Assembly: GCA_009841255.1 (NCBI GenBank)
Contig: VXMD01000032.1
Coordinates: 305,923 to 369,922, forward strand
Length of the DNA: 64,000 nucleotides
Direction of reading: 5' to 3'
Source of the DNA: Candidatus Poribacteria bacterium
Lineage (GTDB): Bacteria; Poribacteria; WGA-4E; WGA-3G
A program made the translations under genes and the position numbers. Position 1 is the stretch's first letter; every line of letters begins with the position of its first letter. Under the pieces are notes generated by a model. The model was not told the DNA's origin. It saw only the letters and a program-made list of their open reading frames with translations, and ran no database searches. This document shows, piece after piece, positions 39,378-54,435 of this stretch.

Positions 39378-39440
39378 AATACTTTAACTGAGTACCGATA
39401 ACCGATAACTGATAACCATTAAAACGGAGGAATCGTAAAC

Positions 39441-47871: not shown

Positions 47872-48522
47872 TCAAAAGATTGTGCCCATCCAATCATTGA
47901 GTAGAAAATCGACGCGTTGAATGAGCAGGGCGACACGTCCCATGACGGTGTTCCCGAACGCCGAACCGAACCCTATCATGAGGAAGGCAATACCGACTTT
48001 TGACAACCACTTGACAGGACCCCGGTGTTCTACAGAGAAAAAGAAATAGGTGAGCGTGCAAACGACCCCTATAACCATAAGGACCGCCTCCAAAACGCCC
48101 CATCCCGAAAGCGTTCCCGCGTGAATCGCTGCGAAGGGTTCGATTGTTCCGCGTGTTTGCTCGAAAATATGTGCGCGCAGCACATTCGGAATTGCGAGTC
48201 CTGAACCGGCACCGATGAGAATGGCGATAGGATAACGAACCAACCACTCATGTTGTGGGGAAAAGCGTGTAAAGAAGAGTAACCCGATGCAGATCGGAAT
48301 CAGTTTGATTAACCCGATGAGCGATTCGCCAGTTATCGCTGCCCAAAAAGGTTTCCATGCCAACGGAATAAAACCTTGATGCGTCGTGAGTACGAATACG
48401 TACCCAACCGATACACCGACAAAGAGGTACTCCGCAAACCGATAAAATGGGTTATCACGATAAAGAAAACTATAGATAGAAAGCGTCAAAAACGCTGCAA
48501 CCCAAATGCCAAAAACTTCCAT
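47872..48522 (-). CDS. Polytopic membrane protein of the DUF6754 operon
   Basis: The 216-residue protein has about seven hydrophobic segments, beginning 'MEVFGIWVAAFLTLSIYSFL' and including 'YLFVGVSVGYVFVL', 'PIAILIGAGSGLAIPNVLRA' and 'GIAFLMIGFGSAFGNTVMGR'. No family was recognised with certainty. ATG 48522 follows GAGGAG by 7 bp and lies 4 bp after the previous stop; the longer frame to 48570 overlaps it. It is the last gene of a four-gene unit. The repeated Gly-rich segments suggest a channel or transporter-like core. Confidence 0.7.
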   Translation of the reverse strand: MEVFGIWVAAFLTLSIYSFLYRDNPFYRFAEYLFVGVSVGYVFVLTTHQGFIPLAWKPFWAAITGESLIGLIKLIPICIGLLFFTRFSPQHEWLVRYPIAILIGAGSGLAIPNVLRAHIFEQTRGTIEPFAAIHAGTLSGWGVLEAVLMVIGVVCTLTYFFFSVEHRGPVKWLSKVGIAFLMIGFGSAFGNTVMGRVALLIQRVDFLLNDWMGTIF

Positions 48523-48526
48523 CAAT

Positions 48527-49342
48527 TTACTCCTCTTTTCGCCGTTGGATAAAGAAAGCGATATTCCCAATCACCACTAAACCAACAATCAACAGATGCA
48601 CAAAGGATTCAATATTGATCCACAGCATGCCTTTCGCTGGGGCATCCAGCAGACTTTCATATTCAGCCGCACCTGCGATCCCAGAAATCAGACCGATCAA
48701 TTGCCCGGTTTGCAGGTAGGGATACATCTGTGAGATAATGACCCCAGTGACACCCGCAGCAATTTGTAGATTGTAACGCACGTTCGCATAAGTAATCCAT
48801 ATTTCCGTTGAACTTCCAGAAGCCAAGTCAATAAGGAGACTGATCTGGTCGTAGTTGGTAACGTTCGCCATCATCGGAATATCTGGAAGCGGTTTCCCAT
48901 TGTAGTCAGTCTCAAACACACTGGCGATTTTGGTTCCCATGCCGAGGATAACCAGTTCCTCACCGGGACGGTAACCCAGAAACACATAATCTTCACCATC
49001 TATCGCCCCAGTCTCATCAGCGATCCCCTGTATGAGTGTACTTCCCATCGCCGCGCCTTCTGGTGCAAGTGTGATCCCGATAACGCCGACATCTTTATCA
49101 AAGCACTGTTTCAGGAGTGCCTTTGCCATCGGGTTGAGCTCCGCCAAAGAGGCAGGACCATAGTCAAAGGCGAGCATGATAGTCGATCCTGCAGGGAGCG
49201 CGTCGATATAATCGTGGAGTTGTCGGGTCGGGGCAGATACCGAGACGGGCAAATTGATGGGTAACAACGTCGGAATAATGACCGCCAATGCAACCAAAAT
49301 GAAGATAATTCGCCGGTCAATGTTCATAAATTTTTCAAACAT
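48527..49342 (-). CDS. Membrane-anchored protein with an extracytoplasmic alpha/beta domain
   Basis: The 271-residue protein has an N-terminal helix ('IIFILVALAVIIPTLLPIN'), a ~180-residue soluble domain ('YIDALPAGSTIMLAFDYGPA', 'VGVIGITLAPEGAAMGSTLI', 'LVILGMGTKIASVF') and a C-terminal helix ('SFVHLLIVGLVVIGNIAFFI') ending in RRKEE. The soluble part looks like an alpha/beta nucleotide- or ligand-binding fold. It is the third gene of the DUF6754 operon; GGAGG in the previous gene's end serves as its ribosome site. Confidence 0.7.
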   Translation of the reverse strand: MFEKFMNIDRRIIFILVALAVIIPTLLPINLPVSVSAPTRQLHDYIDALPAGSTIMLAFDYGPASLAELNPMAKALLKQCFDKDVGVIGITLAPEGAAMGSTLIQGIADETGAIDGEDYVFLGYRPGEELVILGMGTKIASVFETDYNGKPLPDIPMMANVTNYDQISLLIDLASGSSTEIWITYANVRYNLQIAAGVTGVIISQMYPYLQTGQLIGLISGIAGAAEYESLLDAPAKGMLWINIESFVHLLIVGLVVIGNIAFFIQRRKEE

Positions 49343-49344
49343 TT

Positions 49345-49995
49345 CTAATCTCCTCCACCCAGATAGGACCGCTCAATCCCCAAAAGAATTCGTATAGATT
49401 GCGATATCGCCCCCAAGCTGACGCCGAGGATGATTCCCCGTCTCGCAGATAGATTTGGGTTATCTAAAATCCACTGTTTCGTATCTGAGACGGCGTTGTC
49501 CCAAGGTAACCCTGATAGAACTGTATTCCAAAACAGATCTCCGATTGGCACATTTCCCATCATCACAATCAGCGCTGTGATAAGAAGTAAACTGGCTTCA
49601 AACGTTCTAGCGCGGAAGGCGCGGTACGCCGCTGAGGCAATGAAGAAAGCGAGGAGTGAAAACATGGTCGCATCCATAGGCACTTGGACGTTATTGAATA
49701 ACCATACGAAGATCGGGTGTTGGGGTCCAAAGGGAATCCCGATGACTACCATCAGGAGGATCCCGGCAAATATAATAAAACTGTACTGCCAATGTTCACT
49801 CCGACGGCGAATCCGCGCGACGTGGGTTTGGACGAGTGTCACAGTGCCTAATACCAGCATAAAAGGAGAGATAATCAGTGCCCAACTGAGCACTTCTTCG
49901 TAGACACCTTGCGAGAAGGAATGCGGACTAAACTGGGTCAGCATCATCACGACCCCAAAAACAAAGCAGAGAATTAACGGAACTTGTCGTCGCAT
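49345..49995 (-). CDS. Polytopic membrane protein of the DUF6754 operon
   Basis: The 216-residue protein has about six helices: 'PLILCFVFGVVMMLTQF', 'VLSWALIISPFMLVLGTVTL', 'SFIIFAGILLMVVIGIPFG', 'MFSLLAFFIASAAYRAF', 'FEASLLLITALIVMMGNVPI' and 'GIILGVSLGAISQSIRILLG'. No family was recognised. It starts 8 bp after the DUF6754 gene and ends 2 bp before the next start. It presumably forms one membrane complex with its neighbours. Confidence 0.7.
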   Translation of the reverse strand: MRRQVPLILCFVFGVVMMLTQFSPHSFSQGVYEEVLSWALIISPFMLVLGTVTLVQTHVARIRRRSEHWQYSFIIFAGILLMVVIGIPFGPQHPIFVWLFNNVQVPMDATMFSLLAFFIASAAYRAFRARTFEASLLLITALIVMMGNVPIGDLFWNTVLSGLPWDNAVSDTKQWILDNPNLSARRGIILGVSLGAISQSIRILLGIERSYLGGGD

Positions 49996-50003
49996 AATAC
50001 CTC

Positions 50004-51149
50004 CTAACCCACCCGCTGTAAGAGTGTTGTGATCCAGTTGACACCCGCGAGTTCAAGAACCACGCCCAGCACAAGGGTAGCGAAAATCAAGACTTTTCCC
50101 CAGTCTTGGCCCCTCAGGCTTCCGAGTAGCATCGGTTCCCTCGACAAATAAGTACTCGCAGCATAGAGCTCTTCGCCGATCAAGGTATAATCACAGGCTG
50201 TGATTAGGAACGGGAGTTGATGCTCAGAATCTGTCCCCGCAATCTGAATCGCGCCGATAGAATTGCCAGTCTCGGCAAGGATGAGCGATTCTGCGTAAAA
50301 CGTGCCTTGTAGAAATACCGCCGCGGGTTTCTCGCGTATCATCATTCCGTCGACACCGGCGGCGTAAGCGAACTGACCAGAAGTGAGGTAGAAAATATTT
50401 TCTTCACTGTAGGCATCCGGACGCCCCTCGTCAAGATAGGAGGCTTTCACCATCTCACGCACCACACTCATCACAATCGGGTCTCGGCACGGCACACGTA
50501 GCGGCGTTTCATAATCCGCTGTTCTCCGTGCGACCTGCCCGAGAATCGTCATACTCGCAATAGTGGCAGTACCGCTCACACCTCCTAAGCCGAGCACGTA
50601 GAGGATTGAGCGTCCCATCTCTGTCGCTCTACCGATGGCTTCATCTACAGCCTCAAGTCCAGGAATGCGCCGAACAAATATCTCTTTACCACTTCTCGCA
50701 TCATAGATGTTCCAAACAACTGCGGCACCAAAAAGAAGCATGGCGATAAATAGCGGGATTCTACCGGTATGAAACCATTCATCTGACCCTTTAACGGGCG
50801 CAGTTTCGTTAGAATCCACCGTTGCCTCCGTGTCGCTAACGGCGCGCACGATGTAGGCGTAAGCGTTCCCTTTCTCAATAGTCGAATCAACGTAGGATGT
50901 TGCCCCAGCCGGTAGCAGCCCACCAATTTCTTCGAGACCCGCACCCGTAATCCGACGGAGGATTTGATACCCGCTGATACCGCTACCCTCCGATGCGGCA
51001 TCCCACTTAATCGTGACGCTACTACCGTCGTCGTTCGGTGTGTCCACTGCCGTGACATTCGATGGCGGCGAAAGTCCTTGGCTGAATGCAACGCCAACGC
51101 TCATGCATAAAACCAAGCCTACGATTATCCATTGAGTTGTTTTTCTCAT
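50004..51149 (-). CDS. FN3-DUF6754 membrane protein
   Basis: The 381-residue protein has a signal peptide ('WIIVGLVLCMSVGVAFSQG') and a fibronectin type III domain (~25-120; 'PPSNVTAVDTPNDDGSSVTI', 'YQILRRITGAG', 'YAYIVRAVSD'). A helix at ~132-152 is followed by a DUF6754-like domain ('GRATEMGRSILYVLGLGGVS', 'VMSVVREMVKASYLDEGRPD', 'YLTSGQFAYAAGVDGMMIRE', 'AIQIAGTDSEHQLPFLITAC') and a C-terminal helix. It is the first gene of a tight four-gene operon. The family recurs in Chloroflexi- and planctomycete-type genomes with similar neighbours, from memory; no function is known. Confidence 0.8.
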   Translation of the reverse strand: MRKTTQWIIVGLVLCMSVGVAFSQGLSPPSNVTAVDTPNDDGSSVTIKWDAASEGSGISGYQILRRITGAGLEEIGGLLPAGATSYVDSTIEKGNAYAYIVRAVSDTEATVDSNETAPVKGSDEWFHTGRIPLFIAMLLFGAAVVWNIYDARSGKEIFVRRIPGLEAVDEAIGRATEMGRSILYVLGLGGVSGTATIASMTILGQVARRTADYETPLRVPCRDPIVMSVVREMVKASYLDEGRPDAYSEENIFYLTSGQFAYAAGVDGMMIREKPAAVFLQGTFYAESLILAETGNSIGAIQIAGTDSEHQLPFLITACDYTLIGEELYAASTYLSREPMLLGSLRGQDWGKVLIFATLVLGVVLELAGVNWITTLLQRVG

Positions 51150-51169: not shown

Positions 51170-51275
51170 AGGGTCATCGGTTGTCGGTTAAGGAGATCAC
51201 TTGTGGTAGTAATCGCAAAAGCAATCACCACAAGATACGTTACTGATAACTGTTAACCGATAACTGACAACCATT
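51170..51275. repeat. Inverted ACCGATAACTGACAACC repeat
   Basis: GGTCATCGGTTGTCGGTTAA and TTAACCGATAACTGACAACC face each other across ~70 bp between the aroB and DUF6754 genes. Related short units lie at 39390-39419 and 53047-53090. Confidence 0.6.
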
Positions 51276-52365
51276 AACAAAAACATTGCGCTATAGCTTC
51301 TATAACGTAGCGATCTTCTATATCATCGCGGATTACAACCTCTCCGATACGCGTCGGCAGGATGAGGCGGAGTTTACCACCTAACGTCTTTTTATCTAAA
51401 TACATGGCATCACATAAAGCTTCAGAAGTAAGGTCAGAAGGAAGTGTGATCGGCAATTCTGTACGCTTTAAGAGGGTGCATTGTCGTTGAAAATCGGTCT
51501 CAGAGAACATCCCCAAATTGACAGCCAACTGCGCTGCACAACTCATACCGATAGAAACCGCCTCACCGTGTCGATACCTGTTGTAATGTGTCACTGCTTC
51601 CAAGGCATGTCCAAAGGTATGTCCATAGTTCAGCACCATCCGCAGTCGGCTCTCTTTCTCATCTTTAGCCACAATTTCCGCCTTGTTGACGCACGCCTGT
51701 GAGATAATTTCAATAAGTGTTGTGTCGTCTAAGTTTAAAAGTGCCTCCAGATCTGCTTCAACCCTTTCAAACAGCGGTGCATCGCGGATAACACCCATCT
51801 TGATAACTTCAATAAGTCCTGCGCGAATGTCGCGTTGCGGCAAAGTTTTGAGCGTCTCGACATCAATGACGACCAACTTTGGCTGATGAAACGCACCGAT
51901 GAGATTTTTGCCTTTTGGATGATTAATCGCTGTCTTGCCGCCGACGCTTGCATCAACTTGCGCCTGTAGCGTCGTTGGAATCTGAACGTAAGGAATACCG
52001 CGCATATATACCGCTGCGGAGAATCCAGCCAAATCGCCGATGACCCCCCCACCGAGCGCAACGATTATTGAACCCCGATCGAGTTGGTGTTCCACCAAAC
52101 TATCCTGTATCCGGGAGAACTGCGCTAACGATTTGCTCTCTTCGCCACCCGGCACGTCAATGACTCGGACGTCAAGCCCGACATCTTCGAGGCTCTTCAG
52201 CACAACGGGCAGATAGCACGTTTTGACATAAGCATCCGAAACGATGAGCACCTTATTCGATTTTGTATGGGGTGTGAGCAGTGCACCAACCCTGTTCAGG
52301 AGTCCAGTCCCAACAACAAGTGGATAACTGTTCTCCCCGAGTTCTACATGTAAGGTTTTCGTCAT
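51274..52365 (-). CDS. aroB: 3-dehydroquinate synthase
   Basis: The 363-residue protein is a standard AroB: 'DVPGGEESKSLAQFSRIQDS', the NAD site 'IIVALGGGVIGDLAGFSAAV', 'RGIPYVQIPTTLQAQVDASV', 'GKTAINHPKGKNLIGAFHQP' and the zinc ligands in 'LNYGHTFGHALEAV' and 'HGEAVSIGM'. It cyclises DAHP to 3-dehydroquinate in the shikimate pathway. Its ATG overlaps the aroK stop by 4 bp (ATGA). Confidence 0.97.
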   Translation of the reverse strand: MTKTLHVELGENSYPLVVGTGLLNRVGALLTPHTKSNKVLIVSDAYVKTCYLPVVLKSLEDVGLDVRVIDVPGGEESKSLAQFSRIQDSLVEHQLDRGSIIVALGGGVIGDLAGFSAAVYMRGIPYVQIPTTLQAQVDASVGGKTAINHPKGKNLIGAFHQPKLVVIDVETLKTLPQRDIRAGLIEVIKMGVIRDAPLFERVEADLEALLNLDDTTLIEIISQACVNKAEIVAKDEKESRLRMVLNYGHTFGHALEAVTHYNRYRHGEAVSIGMSCAAQLAVNLGMFSETDFQRQCTLLKRTELPITLPSDLTSEALCDAMYLDKKTLGGKLRLILPTRIGEVVIRDDIEDRYVIEAIAQCFC

Positions 52366-52904
52366 TTTGGCTTCCTGGTGCTTTTCCGAAACATCCGCTT
52401 GATGTGCATGATAATTTCACCGAATGAGCGTCCCGTTGTGCTTATCATGTGATTGGCTTTTGCATAGTAGGGACGTCGTTCCGCCAACATCGACTGAATC
52501 TTCGCGAGGGGGTCAGGATCTTGGAGTAGGGGTCGGTGCGTCTGGTGTCCAACCCGCTTGTAGATCTCCTCCGCCGTTGCCGTCAAACAGAAGACAACAC
52601 CGTTTCGCTTGAGTGTCGTCATATTCGCTTCTTTCAAAACGACACCACCGCCGGTAGAAATAACGTGATTGTGCAGTTTCGACACCTTACGAACGGCTTC
52701 GCTCTCAAGTTCTCGAAAAGTGGGTTCTCCGTCCTCCGCGAAGATATCACTGATGCGCCGTCCACTGTCCCGTTCGACAATGTCATCTGTATCCACGTAG
52801 CGCATCCGGAGTTGTGAGGCGAGCCGTCTTCCGACAGAGGTTTTTCCCGTGCCCATAAAACCGACAAGCACAATATTGGGTTTTCTTTTCACAGATCGCT
52901 TCAC
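52362..52904 (-). CDS. aroK: Shikimate kinase
   Basis: The 180-residue protein has the Walker A 'GFMGTGKTSVGRRLA', the shikimate-binding 'DTDDIVERDSGRRISDIF' and 'TFRELESEAV', the GGG motif 'STGGGVVL' and the lid 'RPLLQDPDP'. It phosphorylates shikimate with ATP. The GTG at 52904 or the GTG at 52892 could be the start; the second has AAAAGGTG at a better distance. It is the first gene of the aroK-aroB unit. Confidence 0.95.
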   Translation of the reverse strand: MKRSVKRKPNIVLVGFMGTGKTSVGRRLASQLRMRYVDTDDIVERDSGRRISDIFAEDGEPTFRELESEAVRKVSKLHNHVISTGGGVVLKEANMTTLKRNGVVFCLTATAEEIYKRVGHQTHRPLLQDPDPLAKIQSMLAERRPYYAKANHMISTTGRSFGEIIMHIKRMFRKSTRKPK

Positions 52905-53048: not shown

Positions 53049-53198
53049 GTTATCGGTTATCAGTTGTCAGTTGACTGACAACCATTATACCACTTCTGAA
53101 AAATATTGCAAAGGTTTTGCACCAATTTTTGAGATATGATATAATCATGAAAGTGATAAAATATTTCTTCTCCTATAAATATCACACAAAAACCGTAG

Positions 53199-53307
53199 CC
53201 TGCAACAGCGGCGCAGGCGGATATACGCACAAGCAATGTATTTATCAAACCGACCTAACCGAACCGCAAGGTATCATTAAAATTCCGCAAGGTATCATTA
53301 AAAAATG
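53199..53307 (+). promoter_or_regulatory. Hairpin plus double start-codon leader module
   Basis: CCTGCAACAGCGGCGCAGG (53199-53217) is followed by CCGAACCGCAAGGTATCATT and a second CCGCAAGGTATCATTAAAAA that ends at the ATG of the first GNAT gene. Confidence 0.6.
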
Positions 53308-53901
53308 GCACGACAACTCAGGATGGTGCGTCCCCACTTAGAAGACTTACCGGAACTACAACTCCCACCCGGCTACGGCATACGAACCTATCGTGAAGGC
53401 GATGAGGTCCATTGGGCACGCATCATCAGCGATTCGTTTGGCGGTAGGACACGCACCGCCCAAGATACAAGGAACGAGATTACCAGCAGAGATGTATTCA
53501 TTCCAGATGGACTCTATTTCGCAACGCATCAAGATATCCCCGTTGGAACCGCCTGTGCATGGCGGGAATCCGTAGATGAGAAGGATGTTGGATATGTGCA
53601 CATGGTAGGCGTTGTCGCTGAACACACCGGACATAAACTCGGAAAATGGGTCTCACTCGCCGTTCTCATCTACTTCCGAAACAACGGATTCAAATGCTCA
53701 ATGCTGGATACCGATGATTTTCGTGTCCCGGCTGTCAAGACCTATCTGAACTTAGGGTTTATACCTGTTTACGTCGAAGAGGGACAGATAGAACGATGGC
53801 AGAAACTTTTTGAGCAATTGGGATTGCCCGCTATGTCCGCACAAATCGAGAACGTCAGAGAAATGCTCCCTGAGGAACTATGGGTGAAAGTCTCACGTTA
53901 G
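53305..53901 (+). CDS. GNAT-family N-acetyltransferase (first of a tandem pair)
   Basis: The 198-residue protein has a GNAT fold: N-terminal 'GYGIRTYREGDEVHWARII', acetyl-CoA loop 'VVAEHTGHKLGKWVSLAVLI' and 'LDTDDFRVPAVKTYLNLGFI' with the terminal 'PVYVE' strand. It would acetylate an unknown small molecule or protein. Its start codon is part of a double leader module. The next gene, 6 bp away, is a paralogue sharing the same blocks. This copy carries ~25 extra C-terminal residues. Confidence 0.9.
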   Translation: MARQLRMVRPHLEDLPELQLPPGYGIRTYREGDEVHWARIISDSFGGRTRTAQDTRNEITSRDVFIPDGLYFATHQDIPVGTACAWRESVDEKDVGYVHMVGVVAEHTGHKLGKWVSLAVLIYFRNNGFKCSMLDTDDFRVPAVKTYLNLGFIPVYVEEGQIERWQKLFEQLGLPAMSAQIENVREMLPEELWVKVSR

Positions 53902-53907
53902 AATAGC

Positions 53908-54435
53908 ATGGAAGATCAGCTCAAAATGACTCGGCACAATTTGGAAAATCTACCGACGCTCCAGTGTCCTGACGGATATCATATCCGCACCTATCAACAA
54001 GGAGACGAGCCCCATTGGGCGCGAATCATGGACAGAGTCTTCGTAGACCAAGGAAGAACTGCCCAAGATACCTACGCCGCCGTTATTAACCAACCCAATT
54101 TTGATCCAGACGGTTTCTGTTTTGTGATTCACAACGGTATTCCCATCGGTACAGCGTGTGCTTGGAACGAATATCTGCATGGAAAACCCATCGGCTACAT
54201 TGATATGCTCGCCGTGTTGCCGGAGCACACCGGACATAAACTCGGAAAATGGCTAACGGTGTTCCTCCTGCACTATTTTAAAGCGCAACGCGTGGTATCC
54301 GTAATGTTAGACACAGACGATTTTCGACTGCCCGCAATCAAAAATTATCTCAACTTAGGGTTTGTTCCTGTTTATGCAGGTGAAAACCATCTCCGACGCT
54401 GGCGATGTATCTTTGAAAAGTTGGGAATCTTCTAA
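53908..54435 (+). CDS. GNAT-family N-acetyltransferase (second of a tandem pair)
   Basis: The 175-residue paralogue of the preceding protein matches block by block: 'GYHIRTYQQGDEPHWARIMD', 'AVLPEHTGHKLGKWLTVFLL', 'MLDTDDFRLPAIKNYLNLGF' and 'VPVYAGE'. It is a tandem duplication that has diverged in the middle and C-terminus, so the two probably have different acceptors. The glycosyltransferase gene follows after 2 bp, so the three genes form one unit. Confidence 0.9.
   Translation: MEDQLKMTRHNLENLPTLQCPDGYHIRTYQQGDEPHWARIMDRVFVDQGRTAQDTYAAVINQPNFDPDGFCFVIHNGIPIGTACAWNEYLHGKPIGYIDMLAVLPEHTGHKLGKWLTVFLLHYFKAQRVVSVMLDTDDFRLPAIKNYLNLGFVPVYAGENHLRRWRCIFEKLGIF

Follow-up and report, generated by a model that had tools for sequence, protein, structure and literature searches.

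Four closely spaced genes that each encode a membrane protein raise the question of whether they make one cell-envelope machine and, if so, of what kind. The genes, here called A, B, C and D, lie on the minus strand of contig C32 of genome G000, a Candidatus Poribacteria bacterium, within the whole stretch of 64,000 nucleotides that was analysed (the window). The original prediction, made from the letters alone, took them for an operon encoding a candidate undescribed complex.

The four genes and their surroundings

The arrangement proposed, four genes on one strand with gaps of 8, 2 and 4 bp, is borne out by the open reading frame coordinates (Table 1), with D starting at the ATG at 48522 where the program-made list of reading frames had put an upstream TTG. 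Coupled ribosome sites had been proposed as well, and direct reading of the sequence finds purine-rich sites inside the 3' ends of the preceding genes.

Table 1. Features of the A-B-C-D cassette, in window positions
Feature	Position	Strand	Description
Gene A	50004-51149	minus	381 aa; signal peptide, FN3, TM, DUF6754, TM
FN3 domain of A, residues 27-107	50829-51071	minus	Pfam fn3 (below cut-off) and structure; predicted periplasmic
DUF6754 region of A, residues 123-376	50022-50783	minus	Pfam; predicted cytoplasmic, Rossmann-type
Gene B	49345-49995	minus	216 aa; six-helix membrane protein, without Pfam family
Gene C	48527-49342	minus	271 aa; TM, alpha/beta domain (predicted periplasmic), TM; without Pfam family
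Gene D	47872-48522	minus	216 aa; seven-helix membrane protein, without Pfam family above cut-off
A-B gap, 8 bp	49996-50003	minus	Ribosome site overlaps end of A (direct reading)
B-C gap, 2 bp	49343-49344	minus	
C-D gap, 4 bp	48523-48526	minus	Ribosome site overlaps end of C (direct reading)

The description of A as an FN3-DUF6754 protein held. In a Pfam scan A scores 396.8 bits against PF20539 (DUF6754), for which the cut-off is 27, and A is thus a member of a known family, one that is named as a domain of unknown function. Its FN3 part stays under the Pfam cut-off by sequence (20.2 of 25 bits), and structure comparison with VIA supports the FN3 fold (Z 14.0, rmsd 1.8, 94 residues). The closest named relatives of A belong to metagenome-assembled genomes of Candidatus Poribacteria, at no more than 84% identity. 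A is the sole gene of the cassette with a Pfam family: B, C and D match none above the cut-off, none of 15 aligned members of C credibly matches any Pfam family, and an NCBIfam scan of the cassette proteins returned no match above the family cut-offs.

On its 5' side the cassette is flanked by genes for 3-dehydroquinate synthase and shikimate kinase (aroB and aroK type, 51274-52904), and on its 3' side by genes for a TIM-barrel protein and a sulfatase. Sigma-70-like sites are not enriched (6 found, against a shuffle mean of 5.1).

Distribution and gene order

Homologues of the four genes could have been scattered and independent; instead they keep company and order across the window's phylum and in other phyla. 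A and C were followed by genome-wide search, and B and D at loci. PF20539 is present in 81 of the 84 genomes of the window's phylum and C is likewise present in 81; the three that lack A are also those that lack C (G005, G006 and G017). Loci were drawn from the search of the phylum, of which 30 matches made loci, from chosen regions, and from the best 80 of 505 confirmed relatives in named genomes. Since the loci were mostly chosen by A, the count of gene order tests B, C and D given A. With 61 A genes set aside because they lie close to the end of a contig or locus, there remained 91 distinct A genes with 3.2 kb or more of downstream sequence. B, C and D follow in order in 88 cases, 87 with B-C-D and one with an additional C as well. 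The order fails in three places: after the A of L083, after the third A of L073, and after the second A of L086, where B alone follows.

Much the same holds in the phylum of L082, which carries the name Armatimonadota. PF20539 was found in 129 of the 151 genomes sampled from it, and most of 18 Armatimonadota regions keep A-B-C-D. C-D lies 5.2 kb from A-B in L182, and L172, L183 and L186 have A-B only (L172 ends there). Two copies of A stand in succession ahead of B in L172 and L173, both of Armatimonadota type. No relatives of the cassette were found in the viral contigs or plasmids searched.

Tandem arrays of A-B-C-D occur in other phyla, with the junction from D to the next A falling within a few hundred bases at many loci. 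Of 30 D-to-A junctions counted, three have wider gaps of 3.5-4.4 kb, and some of the loci come from one genome. The longest arrays (L062 and L084) hold three successive cassettes. Between copies at one locus, identity is mostly 40-60% and reaches 81% in L084; to the nearest cassettes elsewhere it is 50-96%. At multi-cassette loci, one same outside cassette is the nearest for all four proteins in 24 of 34 cassettes, and the remaining 10 have no single common nearest neighbour. Pairwise distances of the four proteins correlate at r 0.77-0.86, to which shared ancestry alone contributes. The cassettes of an array are ancient paralogues that have been passed on as whole blocks, and most of them retain their own four partners.

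Shared occurrence, conserved order and the partner fidelity of paralogous cassettes support an undescribed unit whose members function together. There is good support for A-B-C-D as a real inherited unit and as one that functions together.

Additional copies of C with no adjoining A were seen in the window's genus (G051, G052, G054, G057 and G068; loci L132, L133, L134, L135 and L136). The contigs that carry them in G051 and G054 are short, and the extra C of G057 is in two pieces with an in-frame stop, TAG.

A larger locus with an ATPase-family gene

The four genes stand as a unit, as proposed, but their number understates the extent of the locus: they often make up the 3' half of a set of eight genes, one of which encodes an ATPase of the MutL/GlmL family. 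HMMs for the four upstream genes, covering 111 loci of which some share a genome, found the order c50-c5-c1-c0-A-B-C-D in 12 (L088, L100, L112, L116, L117, L118, L121, L125, L140, L184, L188 and L189). These span genomes of Armatimonadota, Fermentibacteria and Poribacteria type, and L140 is of the window's own class. At several Armatimonadota loci the order is c50-c5-A-B-C-D, with c1-c0 absent at the locus.

The likeness of c1 to the GlmL/MutL accessory proteins lies in its match to PF13941 (MutL; 440.9 bits against a cut-off of 27 for the member from L121). However, c1 differs from them in length, about 600 residues against model lengths of about 450, and in its linkage to a membrane cassette, and it scores below both the equivalog for the GlmL methylaspartate mutase accessory protein (NF040745; 245.1 against 475 bits) and the GlmL-type equivalog (NF040744; 226 against 600 bits). 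c0 is a conserved protein of about 374 residues with a weak match, in sequence only, to an RnfC/biotinyl-like barrel; its first member reaches 19.9 of 25.6 bits against RnfC_N, and 7 of 12 members match at E<=1. c50 and c5 are small, and c5 is without a Pfam match. In L152, L154 and L156, c1 and c0 are fused in a single reading frame.

In the window's genome, c0 precedes the window by about 23 kb (C32:281510-282637); c1 sits on another contig, C20, without c5 or c50 adjoining. Across the window's phylum c0 was found in 75 of 84 genomes (in one of them as a 34-residue match only), and MutL above the cut-off also in 75 of 84. We also surveyed 25 genomes chosen from the 80 named loci, themselves the best of 505 relatives. 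c0 occurs in 23 of these, at full length in 22 and as a single full-length copy in 21 of those 22; it is absent from G086 and G107, and one further genome of the 25 has a weak relative only. The same 25 genomes hold 79 matches to A, one to six each, a few of them partial. Of the 79 A genes that open an array and have 5.5 kb or more of upstream sequence, an adjacent A-A pair being counted twice, 50 have none of c50, c5, c1 and c0.

Topology and structure

Hydropathy averaged over 88 rows gives six segments for B, seven for D and two for C, in agreement with the helix counts first proposed, including a domain set between two helices in C. A shows a signal-like segment, two strong transmembrane segments and, within its soluble domain, a further two that are weaker. 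The charge pattern of the loops predicts that FN3 and the domain of C are on the outer side and the DUF6754 domain of A on the inner side. This prediction agrees with the periplasmic side originally assigned to the FN3 part and the C domain, but the earlier account left unmentioned the main DUF6754 domain, which is predicted to be cytoplasmic.

Structure models were obtained for A (pLDDT 83) and C (pLDDT 89). The best VIA rows for the soluble domain of C, at Z 10, are Rossmann-like folds in the common Rossmann arrangement, and Foldseek adds weak GT-B-like rows. TrkA/RCK domains, the CODH epsilon subunit and MT0777 share a similar Rossmann-like fold with it (Z 8.7-10.0). However, C has two transmembrane anchors and a domain predicted outside, and the likeness is one of fold only; no sequence relation of C to these three, and no Pfam hit, was found. 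With the model of A, both Foldseek and VIA gave rows filled by FN3 domains, none of which informs the DUF6754 part, and FN3 domains were also the sole matches of A in a PDB profile search. The same searches with B, C, D and c0 gave nothing credible.

Conserved residues of A are E177, E287, E293, Q311, D320, E326 and E327, and conserved polar residues lie in or beside predicted transmembrane segments of C (H249, N260) and D (E31). As placed by eye on the models, most conserved residues of A and C appear to fall close to the C-terminal ends of strands, the place at which ligands bind in Rossmann folds. Conserved residues at such positions, together with polar residues in the membrane, suggest a working site and not a scaffold.

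The FN3 domain is absent from the A homologues of L144, L145 and L041-L043, which keep the signal peptide. In L037, L038 and L039, from class-level relatives, B carries an insertion of about 95 residues in a predicted outside loop after the third helix. A and C might have been taken for paralogues, both models having six alternating beta-alpha units before a transmembrane helix, but profile comparison shows no relation between them. B and D are likewise unrelated by profile comparison.

What the cassette may be

The four proteins probably form one cell-envelope machine, seemingly an undescribed one, and this machine is probably a ligand-responsive inner-membrane complex that would be under ATP control through c1-c0. 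In the fuller form of this explanation, B and D, with their six and seven helices, would form the core, A would extend its FN3 domain outward as an arm and hold a Rossmann-type DUF6754 ligand domain on the cytoplasmic side, and C would hold a second Rossmann-type domain outside. In many lineages the cytosolic c1, a MutL/GlmL-family ATPase with an actin-like fold, and c0, its putative RnfC/biotinyl-like barrel partner, would act on the complex. The output would most likely be ATP-controlled transport or signal transfer across the inner membrane. That A-D form one such complex, with ligand domains on both sides and an ATP-controlled transport or signalling role through c1-c0, is plausible to us at a little short of even chances.

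ECF-type transporters combine one shared energising pair with several specific membrane modules per genome. By analogy, a single c1-c0 pair in a genome with several cassettes may be common to all of them, with each cassette specific for one ligand. However, A-D show no Pfam match to an ABC ATPase or S-component family. There is no ATPase in A-D, and among the recurrent partners scanned (c50 excluded) the only ATPase-type protein is c1, which is MutL and not ABC. This explanation is also weakened by c1-c0 not lying beside the cassette in the window's genome or at most loci. GlmL itself is known as an enzyme accessory protein and not as a transport ATPase, which weighs against a reading of ATPase-driven transport. 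A broader proposal is more tentative and, in our judgement, somewhat doubtful: an undescribed diderm inner-membrane machine in which an ASKHA-type ATPase pair, c1-c0, would drive one or several interchangeable A-B-C-D cassettes bearing ligand domains on either side of the membrane. Such a machine would be ancestral to Armatimonadota, Poribacteria and many FCB-like candidate phyla.

RCK/TrkA domains are regulatory sensors of potassium channels, and A-D could by that model be an ATPase-free ligand-gated channel or secondary transporter in which the Rossmann-type domains are regulatory sensors and c1-c0 merely an old neighbour. The alignment of the C model with TrkA/RCK domains (Z 8.7-9.5) fits such a device, as do the many cassettes with no c1-c0 nearby and the two genomes without any c0. 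However, many unrelated Rossmann proteins fall in the same Z range, several phyla show the c1-c0 linkage, and genomes with the cassette nearly always have c0, so we consider a channel or secondary transporter unlikely.

Five WOR-3-type loci (L070, L080, L113, L114 and L130) suggest a system for energising the outer envelope or for gliding, based on ExbB/ExbD/TonB. There the cassette precedes genes for a DUF4388 protein, for two more soluble proteins and for two small membrane proteins, along with ExbB/ExbD/TonB-like genes; the ExbB/ExbD/TonB names, like a roadblock guess for c13 and c17, are our own reading and without a family match. An ExbB-like gene also adjoins c0 in L160 and L161. Taken together, these loci belong to WOR-3- and Zixibacteria-type genomes. 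Such an arrangement is found in a minority of loci only, however, and none was seen beside the cassette among the Poribacteria and Armatimonadota regions listed. A-D themselves have no Exb, Tol or Mot family match (for ExbB/TolQ/MotA, none in Pfam at E<=0.1), and we regard a system of this kind as improbable. That the four are independent envelope proteins sharing only a transcript is very improbable: extra C copies occur without A, but the strict order, the block inheritance of ancient paralogues and the joint absence from three genomes argue against it, and the extra C copies supplement genomes that hold A and C elsewhere.

Relation to described systems

Although A is a clear member of DUF6754, B, C, D and the link to c1-c0 share no Pfam entry with that family. 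By the family comparisons made, the system as a whole appears to fit none of the known kinds tested. Three of the four families are nameless, and no mention of DUF6754, PF20539 or PF13941 was found in the open-licence papers searched. PMC3909097 makes general remarks on FN3-domain genes in Poribacteria, and no relevant passage was found in PMC10849945. The cassette belongs to the near-core genes of the window's phylum, as does A in the Armatimonadota-named sample, and other candidate phyla carry the cassette in multiple copies. If the machine proposed here is real, it would be a basic and so far undescribed envelope function for much of the uncultivated diderm tree.

Other features of the window

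A repeat resembling GTTATCAGTTA has 11 matches in the window at no more than one mismatch, against 0.85 expected, with clusters at 51240-51271 (between aroB and A), 39399-39416 and 53049-53066. Two similar GNAT-like genes lie side by side at 53305-54435, and the first of them, when scanned, belongs to an acetyltransferase family.
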